DNA from: Methanothermobacter sp.
Lineage (GTDB): Archaea > Methanobacteriota > Methanobacteria > Methanobacteriales > DSM-23052
Length of the DNA: 45,431 bases
Assembly (NCBI GenBank): GCA_030055615.1
Contig: JASFYN010000004.1
Location: 77,782 to 123,212, forward strand
Direction of reading: 5' to 3'
The notes under the pieces: generated by a model
What the model was told of the DNA's origin: nothing
The model's input: the letters and a program-made list of their open reading frames with translations, nothing else
Database searches by the model: none
Position numbers and translations under genes: made by a program
Shown: positions 7,664 to 21,536 of the stretch, piece after piece
How positions within the stretch are numbered: the stretch's first letter is position 1
Layout of the letters: every line of letters begins with the position of its first letter

Positions 7664-8623
7664 ATGGAGTGGTTGTTGTCCATGATGTTAAATGTAACAG
7701 TTTCAGATTATATAAGGGCTATGTTATTTTCTGGGCTTCTATTTTATCGGGAAGAGTTTTTAAATGTTAAAAAGGTTTTCAGGAATTGGCTTGAAGCTAT
7801 ATTGTTCAGATTAGGTTTGCTGGATGGGTTCATGGGAAAGCTTAGAAACGGAGAAAATGTAAAGATAGCGAATTTATGGGAGTACTATCGTCTATTATAT
7901 GCTCAAATGTTAGACCATGCGAAGATTTGGGGTAGAATCATAGAATTCAAATTCAATGGCACGAAACTCAAGTTTTATTTAGGCAAGGACAAAGTAGGAT
8001 TATTAGATGCTCTTAATGTGTTAAGTGAAACCTTTGCCATAAAACCCTACAAGCATTTGGATGTCAAAAGGAGGGTTGTGGTTGATATAGGCTCCTATAT
8101 TGGAGATTCACCAATATATTTCGTTTTAATGGGGGCAAGACAAGTATATGCTTTTGAACCTTATCCAAACTCTTATAATCTTCTTTTAAAAAATATCATG
8201 GCCAATAATTTGGATAAAAGGATAATAGCATTTAATGAAGGGCTCGGTGAAAAAGTAGGCAAGATAAAAGTAAATGAGGATTATAGGGCCTTGGCCACTT
8301 CACGATTGAAAGACTTTTGTAAGGGTAGGCTTGTGAAATTAACAAACTTGGAAGAAATAGTAAGAGAGTTCAATTTAAAGAATGCTTGTCTGAAAATGGA
8401 TTGTGAGGGCTGTGAGTACAGTATACTTGAAACGCCAAAAAGTATCCTAAAAGTGTTCTGGGAGATGATAATAGAGTATCATCATGGTTATATGAACCTC
8501 AAAGAAAAACTTGAAAGTGCGGGTTTCCAAGTCAAAAACACAAAACCCATCCTCTACAGGGTAGGAGATCAAAAGTTCTTGATGGGTTATCTACATGCAA
8601 AGAATGTGAAGAAAAACTTCTAA
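7664..8623 (+). CDS. FkbM-family methyltransferase
   Basis: This 319-residue protein has a C-terminal FkbM-type SAM-dependent O-methyltransferase domain. Motif I is 'VDIGSYIGDS' (about 140-149), the acidic loop is 'AFEP' (163-166) and the family signature 'KMDCEGCEY' is at 244-252. FkbM enzymes methylate hydroxyl groups of sugars or polyketides; in archaea they often sit with glycosyltransferases. About 100 N-terminal residues form a helical extension, also present in the frameshifted paralogue at 36939-37881 in the glycan cluster. This copy stands alone. A TATA-like 'ctaaaatatag' lies close upstream, so the mRNA may have little or no leader. Confidence 0.9.
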   Translation: MEWLLSMMLNVTVSDYIRAMLFSGLLFYREEFLNVKKVFRNWLEAILFRLGLLDGFMGKLRNGENVKIANLWEYYRLLYAQMLDHAKIWGRIIEFKFNGTKLKFYLGKDKVGLLDALNVLSETFAIKPYKHLDVKRRVVVDIGSYIGDSPIYFVLMGARQVYAFEPYPNSYNLLLKNIMANNLDKRIIAFNEGLGEKVGKIKVNEDYRALATSRLKDFCKGRLVKLTNLEEIVREFNLKNACLKMDCEGCEYSILETPKSILKVFWEMIIEYHHGYMNLKEKLESAGFQVKNTKPILYRVGDQKFLMGYLHAKNVKKNF

Positions 8624-8679
8624 CTGAAATTTTTAGACGAGATCTGAAATTGGATTACAATTGGAAAAATAGGGTGAAT

Positions 8680-9099
8680 CTAAATTCTTTTGAGTAATTC
8701 TTCAATTTTTTCCAGAAAATCGTAAAAGTCTGGGAGATGCTCTCTTAGGATATTAAAGGCTATCTTATCATCGATTTTCCCATAACGATGAACTAGTATG
8801 TTCCTATGCTTTCATAGCTCTAAGTTTTTCCCCGAGTTCCTCGTCGATGATATTCTCCCGCAAAAGATTGTAGAATATGTCTTCATCTTCCCTTGGAACC
8901 CCAAGTTTGAGATCTGAATTTAAAATAGAGCATATGTCAAAAATGTTGCCTATGGAAAATTCTAGTCTTTTATATATACCATCTTTCACGAGTCCAAGCC
9001 TAGAAAATTCCTTAAAAGTTTTGGGGGGGTGTTTTCCTCCACTAATCTTATACTTTCTTCTATTTCTTTAAATTTTGTCCTGATAATGCTCTTCCTCAC
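8680..9099 (-). pseudogene. hepT: HepT (HEPN RNase toxin), frameshifted
   Basis: The minus strand reads as a DUF86/HepT protein from GTG 9099: 'RTKFKEIEESIRLVEEN', then 'KTFKEFSRLGLVKDGIYKRL', a conserved middle section, and finally 'RNILVHRYGKID', the HEPN RNase motif (R-x4-H-x-Y). One frame change lies in a G7 run on the plus strand (9023-9029) and another near 8810, just before the active-site motif. HepT toxins cleave RNA and are silenced by their MNT partner through AMPylation. The partner relic lies directly upstream at 9125-9500. No active toxin is expected. Confidence 0.8.
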
Positions 9100-9124
9100 C
9101 AATCTTCGGAGCCCCCATTAAGGT

Positions 9125-9500
9125 TTATTCTATTGGTTTTTCTCCAATATAATCATAGAAACTGTGTTTAAAAGCGTCGAATTTTTTTATGGTCTGCCAA
9201 GCGATATCATGTAGGAAGGTTTCATCCGGACAATATAATTACCTTCCCCTTCAGCACTTCAACCTTGATATATAATGGGAGGAGCTGGAAAAATTTGAAC
9301 ATCGAATATCCCAAGAAGTTCCTTTAAGACTCTGAATCTGAAATCTAATGATTCTTCCACATCCCCATAATAAATAAATCTATATCATTATATTCTTTAT
9401 CATGGGCTGCTGATCCATACAATATTATGAATTTTACCCTAAAACCTCTAATTGCTTTTATCCTATCAAGAGCCTTGTTCACCATTTTCATAAGATTCAT
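9125..9500 (-). pseudogene. mntA: MntA nucleotidyltransferase antitoxin relic
   Basis: From ATG 9500 the minus strand encodes an MNT-type nucleotidyltransferase with 'ILYGSAAHDKEYNDIDLF', the GSx9DxD motif of the family. Frame changes follow near 9380, 9275 and 9230. The C-terminal part is still readable ('DIAWQTIKKFDAFKHSFYDY') up to TAA 9125. The gene precedes hepT by 25 bases, the usual MntA-HepT order. It is clearly broken. Confidence 0.75.
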
Positions 9501-9651
9501 GGTATTGGATTGTCCTCACTGATACTTATTTTGGGAACATGTAGAATCGCCGTGGACGATATCCCCACTAGTTTTATTGAAGGGTTCTTTATGGGTTTCT
9601 GAAAAGCTGGACTTGATCAAAAATATTCCAATTGGTGTTATCATGAGCACA

Positions 9652-9831
9652 TTAGGCTGAGCTGGTAAAAACCGCCAATTTTATAATTTTTGAGACATTA
9701 ATGATAGCCATTAGAAGAAATCCGAATCCTACCCCGATAATTGCACTTATATCTGGCCTGTTAAATGCTAGTCCAACACCCATACTAACCTACAAAGGCT
9801 AAACTTCCATATTTCTTTCGCTCATATCCAT
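9652..9831 (-). pseudogene. small membrane protein relic
   Basis: The minus strand from ATG 9831 starts 'MDMSERN', changes frame twice within 40 bases (through a segment reading 'KYGSLAFVG'), and continues as 'GVGLAFNRPDISAIIGVGFGF' with one strong hydrophobic stretch, ending at TAA 9652. It looks like a short one- or two-helix membrane protein with two single-base indels. I cannot name the family. It lies downstream of the CPBP gene on the same strand. Confidence 0.45.
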
Positions 9832-9857
9832 TTTTCACATCCCACATGATTTGTGGC

Positions 9858-10682
9858 CTAAAATGGAGGGTCTTGTTTTAGGTGGTGGTTTTGTTGGTAT
9901 TGTCTGCGGATCATTTTTTCAGGTCCCCAGATTATTAGGATGATTATCACCGCTATTATGTTTAGTATGAGGGAGTATAGTCCGCCTAGGCTTGTTGCCA
10001 TTGTTGGAAAGATGAAATGTGACAAGTTACCCATTGTATGGAAGAGCAAAACCGCTAGGATGCTTCTTCCTGTGTTGTTATATATCCATGTGAACAATAT
10101 TGAAAGGAGGACTGTGCCAAGTATAAAACCCAAAATTGGCACATTACGGTATATTTCCTGTCCTTTCATGAAGAATAGGGGCAGATGCCATAATCCCCAT
10201 ATGATCCCAAGGATTATGCTGGAAATGAGAGCATTATACTTAGTTTGTAATCTGTCGAGGGCATATCCTCTCCAACCAAATTCTTCTGCCATCGGACCGC
10301 CAAGGAATAATATGTAGAAAAATGCAGGGATAATAATCCATGGCTGAGACAATACCCCCATTTCAGGGGCTGGTTCGCCACTGAGGATTGCTAGTAAGAA
10401 GGATAATCCTATAATGGTTGGCATTAATAAGAATATGGGTATGAGCCAAATTTTCCCGAAGCTGAAATCTATACCCCTTTTCAATAGCTTTTTCGCCCCA
10501 TCTAATCCCCCACTTGCGTATGTGAGGATAAAGGCTGCTATTGTGGGGCCGAATGGGGCGAGATATAATTTGATGCTCCAAATAGCCTCAGGTAGCCAAA
10601 GTAGCCAAGACCAAGCAAAGGCTATTAGAAAGAATATATACAAGTGTTTTTCGGATTTATTTGTAATTTGCAAAGGTGACAC
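9858..10682 (-). CDS. CPBP-family intramembrane protease-like protein
   Basis: This protein of about 274 residues has seven to eight hydrophobic segments and carries the CPBP (Abi/CAAX-protease-like, PF02517) motifs. These are 'AEEFGWRGYALDRLQ' (EExxxR glutamates near residues 133-134), 'GLWHLPLFF' with a histidine, and a later 'LLFHTMGN' histidine. Family members are membrane metalloproteases such as Rce1. I chose GTG 10682 over the ATG 26 codons upstream because the only good TATA box (10760-10770) would start transcription near 10740, downstream of that ATG. A G-run just upstream of the GTG may serve as ribosome binding site. The substrate is unknown. Confidence 0.85.
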   Translation of the reverse strand: MSPLQITNKSEKHLYIFFLIAFAWSWLLWLPEAIWSIKLYLAPFGPTIAAFILTYASGGLDGAKKLLKRGIDFSFGKIWLIPIFLLMPTIIGLSFLLAILSGEPAPEMGVLSQPWIIIPAFFYILFLGGPMAEEFGWRGYALDRLQTKYNALISSIILGIIWGLWHLPLFFMKGQEIYRNVPILGFILGTVLLSILFTWIYNNTGRSILAVLLFHTMGNLSHFIFPTMATSLGGLYSLILNIIAVIIILIIWGPEKMIRRQYQQNHHLKQDPPF

Positions 10683-10759
10683 CCCCCCAAGGCCGTGATC
10701 TAAAATTCTTCCAAGATTCTTGGAACACGAGCACAGTTTGTGTAACAATATATAATTCA

Positions 10760-10770
10760 ATTATATAATA
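10760..10770 (-). promoter_or_regulatory. TATA box of CPBP gene
   Basis: The near-palindromic 'attatataat' lies about 80 bases upstream of GTG 10682. Its position rules out translation from the ATG at 10760. Confidence 0.5.
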
Positions 10771-10808
10771 ATGGGTTGGGCATTTTTAGGGAAGTCCTTT
10801 TTTCAAAA

Positions 10809-10819
10809 AGAATATAAAG
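10809..10819 (+). promoter_or_regulatory. TATA box of CARDB-like secreted protein gene
   Basis: 'gaatataaag' lies about 95 bases upstream of the TTG start at 10909. A GAGAGGGA ribosome binding site sits just before the start. Confidence 0.4.
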
Positions 10820-10908
10820 GGGGAAAGTCTTAATAGATTAGTGGCAAATTTTGTGTCCCATAAAAAGAAGAATATTATGCTTCCCAATACTTTTGAGAGG
10901 GAATTTCC

Positions 10909-11400
10909 TTGAAAACCAGCACATTAACAATAATATTAATAATAGCGGGCCTTATAGGGATAGTAGCAGCAGCATATTTGTTACAAGGTGAAGAGACCAA
11001 ACCTCTAGTGGTTAATGTCACCCAAAAAACACCATATAATGTAACACCTGTCCAGGGAGCTGCGGAACTTGTAGCGATACAAGAGGGTCCTAAAACAGCA
11101 ATCCCCGGTACAAATGTGACAATAACTTGCAAAATAAAAAATATAGGATCCGAACCAGCTGAGAACATCACAGTAACTTCACAGATATTTGAAAAACACA
11201 TAGACAGGATAAACCCCAGTGAAAAAGTGGAGTTCACAGTTGAAGTATACATCCCGACTCCAGAGGAAGTTAAAGAATCCTTCGGTCCAAACGCAACACT
11301 CTCAAATCCCTTCTACATTGGAGGATACACAGTAATATATTATGACATAAAAGGCAAACATGAAATTAACTCTAATCCACTTAGAATAAACTTGATATAA
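10909..11400 (+). CDS. membrane-anchored protein with CARDB/DUF11-like domain
   Basis: This 163-residue protein begins with TTG after a GAGGG ribosome binding site. An N-terminal hydrophobic helix (about 5-25) acts as a signal anchor. The rest is a single beta-sandwich domain of CARDB/NPCBM-like type: 'AIPGTNVTITCKIKNIGSEPAENITV' is the typical strand pattern of such extracellular domains (quoted here only in outline; see residues about 63-88). Several N-x-T/S sites suggest surface exposure and glycosylation. It converges on the M24 peptidase gene. No enzymatic motif is visible and the role is unknown. Confidence 0.7.
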   Translation: MKTSTLTIILIIAGLIGIVAAAYLLQGEETKPLVVNVTQKTPYNVTPVQGAAELVAIQEGPKTAIPGTNVTITCKIKNIGSEPAENITVTSQIFEKHIDRINPSEKVEFTVEVYIPTPEEVKESFGPNATLSNPFYIGGYTVIYYDIKGKHEINSNPLRINLI

Positions 11401-17624: not shown

Positions 17625-17686
17625 TCACACCACCCTTATTAAAATTTACTTTAAATTATATCAAGTAAACTTTAAATAAGCTATTG

Positions 17687-17696
17687 GTATATAAAC
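17687..17696 (-). promoter_or_regulatory. TATA box of CobN-like gene
   Basis: On the minus strand 'gtttatatac' lies about 65 bases upstream of ATG 17624. The leader is AT-rich and ends in GGTGGTGTGA. Confidence 0.5.
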
Positions 17697-17699
17697 ATT

Positions 17700-18093
17700 A
17701 TCACTCATTCGACAAAAAAGTCAGCAGGAAAATAATTCCACAAAACTTTAGCTTTCTTAAATTATGACTTAAATCATCTTAAAATCAAAAAATAATACAA
17801 AACTTCATCAAATTAAATTCAAAACTTTAACTTTACTTTGGAATATTCAAAAAGACCATTTTGTTGACCTAATTTAACAAAAAAATCATCTGAACTTTTC
17901 TTGTTCCAAGAACCAAAAATTGAAGTACTAAAAAAAAAAGATTAACTTGATTTTGGAAGTTTACTTCTTCCAGTACATTTCTTCTTCTATCGTATTATCT
18001 GCAAAATTTTAAAAATTTAATAAAATGATTTTTTTCTCGGAGCTTATTTTAACATTTAGGTACGGCATCTCCTTGTAATACATTTATTCTTTT
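17700..18093. other. AT-rich intergenic stretch
   Basis: About 390 bases lie between the VRR-NUC stop and the CobN-like promoter. The stretch is markedly AT-rich with many A and T runs. No ORF, tRNA or repeat is seen. It may hold the terminator of the VRR-NUC gene. Confidence 0.5.
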
Positions 18094-19560
18094 TCAAATT
18101 ATTTTATATTCATGGGATCTTGAAATTACATCCATTTTTTCTTTAGGAGTTAATTTTTTTACTCCAATCATGAAGTGGATTCCTGGAAAGTTGGTGTCAC
18201 CGAAATTACTTAGCCATTTCCCATTGTGCCAGAACCAGTAATCATAATTGGCGGAAATAAAAGCCCATTCCTCATCTGTTTTTGGGTCAATTTCTGGAGG
18301 GAGGTCTTCAACTAAACCCCAAATATTATCGTCCTTGAAGAGAGGACATAATTGGATATCTTCTATCAACTTTTTGATCCTTGATTTTAACTCTTCTTTG
18401 TTAAAGATCCACTTCTGGAATGATGTGTCCACGTAACCGTAGTTTAGCCATTGCCCATTTTCTAGTCCATCTTTTAGTTTTTCATCGAAAGCATAAATTC
18501 CTTTACATCCTGATTTTAAATGTTTGTTCCTGTAATCGTCTGTTTCACAATAATCTAGAGGCTTGTTTTCAGTGCATTTTTTTCTGAAACACCAAAGTGC
18601 GCTCCTCAGAGTCCCTGACTTCATTTGTTCGCCATTTACTATAACTTTTTGCGTTTTCCAACCGGTTGTGTAGTCAAGAAGTTTATATATTTTTTCAATG
18701 TCATCTTCATTGATTTCGAATGTGGCACCATAAATCTTTTCTTTCCCTTCCCCTTCAGTAAAGTATGTTTCTTGCCTTTTGATGAAATCTATTGCCTCTT
18801 CTCTATACTTAGATGTTGAATAACCAAATGTTATAGTCACTTTACCACTACTGGGCTTGTAAATCCTTTTCTTATTTTCAATCTGCCTTTTTGTATGGTT
18901 TATGAGGGCTAATTCTACTTTAAATCCAAGTTTTGATAAAAAGTCGTGCCATTTTAGTTGGTCCTCTGTTATACTGTCATTTTCAGATTTCACTTCCGCA
19001 AAAAAAAGTTCATTATCATTATATAATATTAAATCTGGCAAGCCTCTTCTATTGTTATTGAAATCAGAAAGTAGCCTATGGAATATTTTTAACAACTTTT
19101 CCCTTTCCACTAACTTAAGGGGAATTGCTAATTCATCGATACTAAATGCATTCCAGTCCTCAATAAGTCTACAATTTTTGCCATAGTTTTCCTCGTACGA
19201 TTCAATTAATTTTTGTATTATATCACCATGTAAGAGTTCCTGGCATCTGTTCCTGATAAGATCTCTACGCCTTTCATAAAATTCCTCCTCGAAAAGATCA
19301 GAAGGCATGCCATTAAGCTGCATAAAACTTTTAGAATCGGGAATAAGCCTTTCTATTTTAGCAAAAATAACATGCCAGAAAAGTAGAGAAAGTAGCATCC
19401 ACCAATATGAATTTTCTGCCCAGATTCCATCATATCCCTCTTTTTTGTAATGAAGCAATGCAACTTCCTCAGCAAAACATTCTTTACTGTCTATCAAATA
19501 TTTCGACTTTCTTCCTTGGGAAGATAATCTCTCAGCCTTTATATTCTTGAATGAAATCAT
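18094..19560 (-). CDS. FAN1-like VRR-NUC nuclease with unrecognised C-terminal half
   Basis: The first half of this 488-residue protein matches the nuclease part of FAN1. 'EEVALLHYKKEGYDGIWAEN' (residues 31-50) resembles the FAN1 segment 'E..vL.yY...G..GiHgE', and the VRR-NUC PD-(D/E)xK core is complete: 'GLPDLILY' with D176, 'FFAEVKS' with E189 and K191, then 'DQLKWHDFL' with Q201. VRR-NUC enzymes are structure-specific DNA nucleases in crosslink repair, phage or restriction systems. Residues about 250-488 match nothing I recognise; they hold a Cys/His cluster (C-x4-C-x8-C, then H-x4-C) that might bind zinc, and a Trp/Tyr-rich end. The gene stands alone between AT-rich flanks, suggesting acquisition. 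GGGAGAAGTGG precedes ATG 19560. Confidence 0.8.
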   Translation of the reverse strand: MISFKNIKAERLSSQGRKSKYLIDSKECFAEEVALLHYKKEGYDGIWAENSYWWMLLSLLFWHVIFAKIERLIPDSKSFMQLNGMPSDLFEEEFYERRRDLIRNRCQELLHGDIIQKLIESYEENYGKNCRLIEDWNAFSIDELAIPLKLVEREKLLKIFHRLLSDFNNNRRGLPDLILYNDNELFFAEVKSENDSITEDQLKWHDFLSKLGFKVELALINHTKRQIENKKRIYKPSSGKVTITFGYSTSKYREEAIDFIKRQETYFTEGEGKEKIYGATFEINEDDIEKIYKLLDYTTGWKTQKVIVNGEQMKSGTLRSALWCFRKKCTENKPLDYCETDDYRNKHLKSGCKGIYAFDEKLKDGLENGQWLNYGYVDTSFQKWIFNKEELKSRIKKLIEDIQLCPLFKDDNIWGLVEDLPPEIDPKTDEEWAFISANYDYWFWHNGKWLSNFGDTNFPGIHFMIGVKKLTPKEKMDVISRSHEYKII

Positions 19561-19910
19561 TTAAATCCACTTCTCCCAAGAATTTCATCTCATTATCTAA
19601 TATCAGCTGTGGTTAATTGTCTTTAATGGTATTAATTAAATGTAAGAAAAACTTTAAATATTTTTCTAAAAGCTTCCGATTTTGTAAGAATATTTCTGTT
19701 CATATAACATAAAATCCCAATTTTTTTACAATATCTAAACTTTTATTAACTTAAGGGTAGAAACATTTATCAAAATCCAAAATTGACCCCTTTTTATTCC
19801 CCCATAATTTTGACTTCGAAGATCCATGGACTCCATGCCCAAGGTATTACGATTTACTATCAAATAATTAATTATTTTTAGCTACTGAGGTTTCCATCAT
19901 TAAAAAATTA
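19561..19910. other. AT-rich intergenic stretch
   Basis: About 350 bases lie upstream of the VRR-NUC gene and downstream of the cupin gene. The part at 19640-19760 is rich in A/T runs and contains TATA-like candidates on the minus strand (for example 'aatatttaaag' near 19650-19670). No gene is seen. Confidence 0.45.
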
Positions 19911-20273: not shown

Positions 20274-20346
20274 TAAAACCCCTCCTACAATAAGATTATG
20301 TAAAGTGGAAGATAAAAAGGGAATATGTAAGGAGGTGCAACCTTCA

Positions 20347-20688
20347 ATGGATAATGAAGTACTTGTATTCCATTATGCTGACCGGGCAAAGGCATTCATA
20401 ATAGAAACATTCAGACTATTCGAACAATACCAACAATTAAACAATAGCAAGGAATTGGACAAACTCATGCTAGAAATATTCAAAGGGTGCGAAAAAGAGA
20501 TAACACTCGGAAAAACCATATGCTCCAAGGTAAATTGGGCGAAAGATTACTTTGAAGATGCTTCAAAATTGGCCAGGGAACTTATAAGGGACTTCAACCG
20601 CCAAGACCATGAAAGAGTGGAAGAAGATCTCAGGAATATGTTGAATAAAATGACAACCTGCGCAGCCACAGCAGAAACGAAAATATAA
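20347..20688 (+). CDS. small helical protein, unknown function
   Basis: I chose ATG 20347 because AAGGAGGTG (20329-20337) lies nine bases upstream; the longer frame from GTG 20305 would include the ribosome binding site. The 113-residue product is charged, almost entirely helical and soluble, with two cysteines in the middle and a C-terminal 'TTCAATAETKI'. I do not recognise the family. It shares its promoter region with the divergent cupin gene. Confidence 0.7.
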   Translation: MDNEVLVFHYADRAKAFIIETFRLFEQYQQLNNSKELDKLMLEIFKGCEKEITLGKTICSKVNWAKDYFEDASKLARELIRDFNRQDHERVEEDLRNMLNKMTTCAATAETKI

Positions 20689-20886: not shown

Positions 20887-21229
20887 TCACTCGAGTTCCA
20901 AAAATAGTTTTGAAATTTTATCTCTCAACACCGGAGCTTTATTTTTGGCAACGTCCCAGACTATATCTAGATTCACCCCGAAATAAAAGTGTATCAGTTT
21001 GTCTCTCATTCTCGCGATCTTCTTCCATTCTATATCGCTGTGTCTATCTTTCAGTTCATCAGATTATATTCTTAGCGGCCTCACCCATTATCTCAATATC
21101 TCGTAATACTGCATCTTGTGTTTTTATGTCTTCTACAAATTTATCATATACCATATTTGTGAAATTAATAATCCTGTTACAAGCTTCAAGTATATCAAGC
21201 AGAAACTCTTTATCACCTCTACGAGACAT
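20887..21229 (-). pseudogene. hepT: HepT (HEPN RNase toxin), single frameshift
   Basis: From ATG 21229 the frame encodes the N-terminal half of a DUF86/HepT protein ('VLRDIEIMGEAAKNI'), then meets TGA. One base out of frame, near 21063-21070, it continues 'SDELKDRHSDIEWKKIARM' and 'RDKLIHFYFG', a perfect R-x4-H-x-Y HEPN active site, to TGA 20887. The break lies before the catalytic motif, so the RNase would be lost, while the MNT partner (21219-21536) is intact. The ATG overlaps the last 11 bases of the MNT gene, showing a two-gene operon. Confidence 0.85.
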
Positions 21230-21536
21230 ATATCACATTCTCCTCAATGTCTTTTCGAATATGTTCTATCCTTATACTTTTCACTCCCTCTTTTGTAAGG
21301 AGATCAATTTTTTTACCCAGTATCTTCTCTAGATATTCTCCAAGATTTAGAAAATTCTCAAGGGTTGCCTCGCCCTTTTCGGATTCTACCAATATATCTA
21401 TATCACTTTTACCTCTCTGCCTTCCTTTTGCATATGATCCAAACAAACCTATCCTTTTAACTCCAAATCTTTTAATCTTATCTTTATTTTCATCTATTTT
21501 TCTCAATATCTCTTCGGAAGTCAGCAATCGTTTCAC
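21219..21536 (-). CDS. mntA: MNT-type nucleotidyltransferase antitoxin
   Basis: This 105-residue minimal nucleotidyltransferase has the motif G33-S34 followed by D45-x-D47 ('FGSYAKGRQRGKSDIDILV'). MntA antitoxins neutralise HepT by adding AMP to the tyrosine of its R-x4-H-x-Y site (type VII toxin-antitoxin). An N-terminal helix (about 5-24) precedes the domain, and the length is normal. The gene overlaps the hepT start by 11 bases. It appears functional although its toxin partner is frameshifted. A second, fully decayed pair lies at 8680-9500. Confidence 0.88.
   Translation of the reverse strand: MKRLLTSEEILRKIDENKDKIKRFGVKRIGLFGSYAKGRQRGKSDIDILVESEKGEATLENFLNLGEYLEKILGKKIDLLTKEGVKSIRIEHIRKDIEENVIYVS

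Follow-up and report, generated by a model that had tools for sequence, protein, structure and literature searches.

A FAN1-type nuclease joined to a four-cysteine domain in Methanothermobacter sp., a candidate accessory defense nuclease

The analyzed DNA (the window) is a stretch of 45,431 nucleotides from a Methanothermobacter sp. genome (GenBank assembly GCA_030055615.1, contig JASFYN010000004.1). It carries a gene whose predicted product combines a FAN1-type VRR-NUC nuclease with a C-terminal domain containing four invariant cysteines (Table 1). The open reading frame was confirmed, and the frame is intact over all of its codons. As described in an earlier note made from the sequence alone, this lone gene has AT-rich flanks; the label “AT-rich island” is weaker, since the GC content is 34.4% in the gene itself and 37.6% in the whole window, where several further genes are equally AT-rich. 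The toxin-antitoxin remnant that the note placed nearby was also found: a degraded HepT/MNT pair with a truncated HepT, situated 1.5 kb from the nuclease gene, is the sole defense-type neighbor in the window.

A 127-aa ORF on the plus strand (positions 20305–20688), for which a Pfam search gave no match over a cut-off, has homologs in all three of the congeners searched (77–83% identity), and these adjoin a cupin gene in genomes G001 and G003. The matching neighborhood is rearranged in the congeners and contains other genes; in G003 a RAMP-family gene lies beside the cupin gene.

Table 1. Features of the nuclease gene, its product and its surroundings (positions in the window).
Feature	Position	Strand	Basis or remarks
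FAN1-type nuclease + four-cysteine domain gene	18094..19560	-	ORF, 488 aa
Downstream intergenic flank	17625..18093	.	469 bp, 24.1% GC
Upstream intergenic flank	19561..19910	.	350 bp, 26.6% GC
HepT-like/MNT toxin-antitoxin pair	21059-21536	-	HepT cut to 56 aa, 44/120 Pfam positions
FAN1-type VRR-NUC domain, residues 28-218	18907..19479	-	Pfam VRR_NUC; phmmer to human and Pseudomonas FAN1 structures; Foldseek 4ri8
E49, equivalent of FAN1 metal ligand E834	19414..19416	-	alignment to FAN1; invariant in 4/4 full-length members
D176 of PD motif (human D960)	19033..19035	-	alignment; invariant in full-length members
E189-V-K191 (human E975, K977)	18988..18996	-	alignment; invariant in full-length members
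C-terminal domain core, residues 240-435	18256..18843	-	eight-sequence alignment; phrog_16260; common to proteins without active nuclease
First subdomain, residues 238-333	18562..18849	-	AF2 model; strand/helix order like ferredoxin-like fold
C324, invariant	18589..18591	-	eight-sequence alignment
C338, invariant (YC)	18547..18549	-	eight-sequence alignment
C352, invariant	18505..18507	-	eight-sequence alignment
C405, invariant (CP)	18346..18348	-	eight-sequence alignment

The Pfam family VRR_NUC (PF08774) matches residues 113–218 of the protein (E=5.2e-17; 62.4 bits, cut-off 23.8). In phmmer searches, structures of human FAN1 matched residues 28–218 (E about 2e-17), followed by Pseudomonas FAN1 (about 5e-11). 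Both the complete VRR-NUC core with D176, E189 and K191 and the FAN1-type upstream segment, already proposed in the note, are therefore present, the former confirmed by Pfam and the FAN1 alignment and the latter by matches starting at residue 28; E49 is an extra ligand that had not been named. The metal-site residues of FAN1 are E834, D960, E975 and K977 (PMC4348246), and counting along the phmmer alignment gave E49, D176, E189 and K191 as their equivalents. These E-PD-EXK residues are invariant in all four full-length members of the family described below. Four sequences went into an AlphaFold2 (AF2) model of the whole protein. The overall confidence of this model is low (mean pLDDT 64.7), despite which its nuclease half retrieved FAN1 structure 4ri8 (Foldseek, E=2.8e-8). 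Residues 28–218 apparently include the FAN1 helical insertion region: the alignment spans the whole domain with few gaps, and helices are predicted in this region, where model confidence is low.

The SAP and TPR parts, which FAN1 uses to grip DNA, were found neither with Pfam nor, in the case of SAP, by alignment to FAN1. Since only 27 residues precede the FAN1 match, leaving no space for TPR N-terminal of the nuclease, both are absent, as previously noted. Judged by its sequence, the protein is a VRR_NUC member of the FAN1-type branch when filed by its nuclease domain alone, and it is not a FAN1 ortholog, because SAP and TPR were looked for and not found. The nuclease is probably active and accessory.

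No significant sequence match was obtained for the residues past about position 230 in Pfam, NCBIfam, PADLOC or PDB. Similarly, a model of the C-terminal part had no match at E≤0.001 among PDB or viral (BFVD) structures, and the PDB similarities were weak. The possibility that the C-terminus is a known domain was rejected on these grounds. The only profile match was to phrog_16260, a phage family of unknown function (residues 229–338; 6.8e-14), which also matches the full-length homologs and the Leptospira protein presented below; the C-terminal part is thus unrecognized, as stated earlier, in the sense that no domain with an assigned function was matched.

Eight C-terminal domains were aligned, from the window, archaeal genome G034, two clostridia, a phage-like contig, a Leptospira plasmid, and the archaeal genomes G009 and G022. 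The alignment contains 11 invariant columns, four of which are the cysteines listed in Table 1. The “Cys/His cluster” of the note was hence borne out for its cysteines and not for its histidines, which are not conserved in the eight sequences. As indicated by their comparison, the C-terminal segment of about 230 residues is a separate, mobile domain, which probably binds zinc via the four cysteines. Residues 225–488 were also modeled alone with AF2 (mean pLDDT 76.5). Most of residues 238–333 are well predicted (about 87–96), with a strand/helix order that resembles a ferredoxin fold. Regarding the putative zinc site, the confidence of the model drops below 50 in the segment that separates C338 from C352, the second and third of the cysteines.

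Full-length homologs were identified in G034, a genome of the same order (locus L002; 48% identity), in Ruminiclostridium cellobioparum (L019; 47%) and in Clostridium sp. (L020; 46%). The clostridial proteins are therefore 46–47% identical to the window protein, compared to 48% for the nearest archaeal member, and a tree of the nuclease domains did not resolve how the members from the window, G034 and the clostridia branch. Such similar distances would fit transfer between archaea and bacteria, and the gene was apparently acquired horizontally. The bacterial members come from one scan of genome contigs with one narrow pattern, so the family is surely under-counted and the four full-length members (including the window) are a lower bound.

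The three homologs all end in a CFI_box_CTERM tail that the window protein lacks. No remnant of this tail was detected in the downstream flank, and no CFI-box protein was found in the host genus; decay of the tail downstream of the window gene was consequently rejected. A literature search on the CFI box found nothing.

The C-terminal domain also occurs in other architectures. In G009 and G022 it follows a nuclease-like region with other residues at the catalytic positions; homology over part of the nuclease was supported by a sequence search in the case of G022, and the nuclease domains of both genomes are apparently dead, to judge from these substitutions. These copies (L070, positions 7767–9404 and 9491–11107; L069, 7965–9521) combine a degenerate FAN1-like nuclease with an intact four-cysteine domain. 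There are two in tandem in G022, and the surroundings in both genomes consist of core genes. Leptospira plasmids encode the domain behind TerB and a zinc ribbon (L006, 5578–11086); genes for a DEAD/DEAH helicase and a caspase-family protein are located some 1.5 to 4 kb away. Scans of viral contigs revealed the domain on one phage-like IMG/VR contig, in a protein without a nuclease, where it follows a zinc ribbon and the N-terminal part reads like a J domain, as well as a short weak match spanning the zinc ribbon. Conversely, a relative in the archaeal genome G141 has a nuclease with 43% identity but another C-terminus.

FAN1-like genes were also observed in other settings. In two genomes, such a nuclease directly follows a dprA gene and another gene whose product has a C-terminal part that reads like a phosphoribosyltransferase (L074, 5869–9464, and L077). 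At L073 (7506–10487) and L072, the FAN1-like gene lies beside (G087) or near (G084) a gene whose product reads like a phage portal.

The nuclease gene is absent from all three congeners searched. VRR_NUC was detected in 10 of the 151 genomes surveyed from the order; among archaea, 4 of 396 genomes have the C-terminal domain. The gene is not a housekeeping gene, because it is missing from the congeners and its C-terminal domain is so rare among archaea; homologs universal in the order, which would have contradicted the note, were not seen. A phage-encoded nuclease was rejected as well, since a search of the phage collection gave no relative and the viral contigs yielded a C-terminal domain free of nuclease.

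Antiviral restriction genes are frequent neighbors of the relatives. In R. cellobioparum, the gene is inserted between hsdS and hsdR within a type I restriction operon, all on one strand; 83 bp separate it from the small ORF before it and 30 bp from hsdR. The G141 relative lies about 0.9 kb from hsdR; next come hsdM and the beginning of a gene read as hsdS. The genes that come next in G034, at 1.5 to 5 kb, include a fragment with HSDR_N and a SIR2 gene. Next to the Clostridium member is a gene with an Abi_C domain, and the gene beyond that matches Shedu weakly; no hsd gene was recognized in the 9 kb covered on each side of this member. Linkage to hsd was thus found in R. cellobioparum, in G141 and, as a fragment, in G034, and not in the window host, where HSDR_N had no match either in the genome or in its congeners. 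The window protein must therefore act without HsdR in its host, which fits the “stand-alone” character proposed earlier, although the operon of R. cellobioparum does not. A rough estimate from the number of HSDR_N matches (six in about 2.0 Mb for G141 and four in about 2.6 Mb for G034) puts the chance of such proximity at 1–2% for each genome, and coincidence is unlikely. General clustering of defense genes would explain the proximity more simply than a specific link with restriction. Defense islands also attract unrelated genes. A defense context is supported for these relatives and not for the window itself, where only the degraded HepT/MNT pair was found.

The note had left the choice between a defense and a repair nuclease. 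Its FAN1-type nuclease with an unrecognized partner domain is supported, and the context that points to defense is found in relatives and not in the window. Defense is the best-supported role and repair the next. We give even chances to the reading that the gene product is an accessory, structure-selective defense nuclease that has spread horizontally. Given the intact catalytic residues, its FAN1-type half is expected to use a divalent metal in cleaving flap or branched DNA as well as DNA ends. The C-terminal module, with its four probably zinc-binding cysteines, may plausibly recognize the target or restrain the nuclease; this role is suggested by the occurrence of the module beside TerB or zinc-ribbon parts in proteins that lack an active nuclease. 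The protein would thereby degrade foreign or damaged replicating DNA, on its own in this host and together with type I restriction enzymes in relatives. The intact E-PD-EXK site, the patchy rarity, the closeness to clostridial proteins and the hsd, SIR2 and Abi_C neighbors of relatives speak for defense. Against it count the lack of any adjoining defense gene in the window save the degraded toxin-antitoxin pair, the absence of a PADLOC antiphage-system model matching the protein, the absence of HSDR_N from the host, the repair function of FAN1 itself, and the degenerate copies of G009 and G022 among core genes. With four full-length members only, the context statistics are thin.

An accessory DNA-repair nuclease, i.e. 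a minimal FAN1 for flaps or crosslinks in which the C-terminal domain replaces SAP and TPR in DNA binding, is possible but doubtful. The whole of the catalytic domain is of the FAN1 type, and known FAN1 enzymes cut 5′ flaps (PMC4103454; PMC9635880), but the DNA-binding parts are missing, the gene is rare and patchy, and relatives are embedded in or located beside restriction genes. It is less probable that the protein is a latent nuclease that an Hsd complex keeps silent until a phage block of restriction sets it free. PrrC, encoded within a type IC operon and freed upon T4 infection (PMC3874165), offers the precedent. The hsd genes around the Ruminiclostridium gene and next to the G141 relative agree with such a mechanism, but not the lack of HSDR_N in the window host and congeners or of hsd genes near the Clostridium member. 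Equally improbable is a nuclease that served replication or recombination in a mobile element or provirus and was left behind in the chromosome: although the C-terminal domain occurs on a phage-like contig and on Leptospira plasmids, and the distant relatives in G084 and G087 lie near or adjoin a protein read from its sequence as a phage portal (Pfam gave no match), no virus or plasmid hallmark genes were recognized around the window, G034 or Ruminiclostridium genes, and the phage-like protein has no nuclease. Least credible is a decaying, functionless import that has lost its CFI-box tail and former partners, for which the tail missing from this copy and from the host genus and the degenerate copies elsewhere might argue, but in which the uninterrupted frame and the retention of all catalytic and Cys residues would be unexpected.

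Should the defense reading be correct, a rare cross-domain FAN1-type nuclease beside restriction genes would extend the FAN1 family, known for crosslink repair, into antiviral defense. A broader proposal, put forward very tentatively and on balance unlikely, is that the hitherto undescribed four-cysteine domain serves microbial conflict systems as a new sensor or adaptor, coupled to FAN1-type nucleases, dead nucleases, TerB and zinc ribbons, and that together with the nuclease it forms a new class of DNA-cutting effector, acting alone or under type I restriction control. The versions with a dead nuclease or none make the role of the domain testable.

What is new here is a partner domain on a known catalytic domain. 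FAN1 (KIAA1018 subfamily of VRR-NUC; human, Pseudomonas aeruginosa) has the same catalytic domain of about 190 residues with the equivalent active-site residues, whereas the window protein lacks SAP, TPR and UBZ and has an extra four-cysteine domain after the nuclease, where a Vibrio FAN1 relative ends. The likeness to phrog_16260 is confined to the first half of the C-terminal domain, and the matched profile region has no nuclease. PrrC and RloC are anticodon nucleases that cut tRNA and have links to type I restriction loci. They resemble the present family in that one relative, that of R. cellobioparum, is an extra nuclease gene inside an hsd operon, but they belong to another protein family with tRNA as target, and the window host has no HsdR. 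In the part of the literature on restriction and VRR-NUC that was covered, no fusion like that of the window protein was found. A protein encoded by a Bradyrhizobium plasmid (L080, 1973–3577) likewise joins a FAN1-type nuclease to an added C-terminal part, but in this case what is added looks like a DEDD exonuclease, and the nuclease appears to be preceded by TPR-like repeats.
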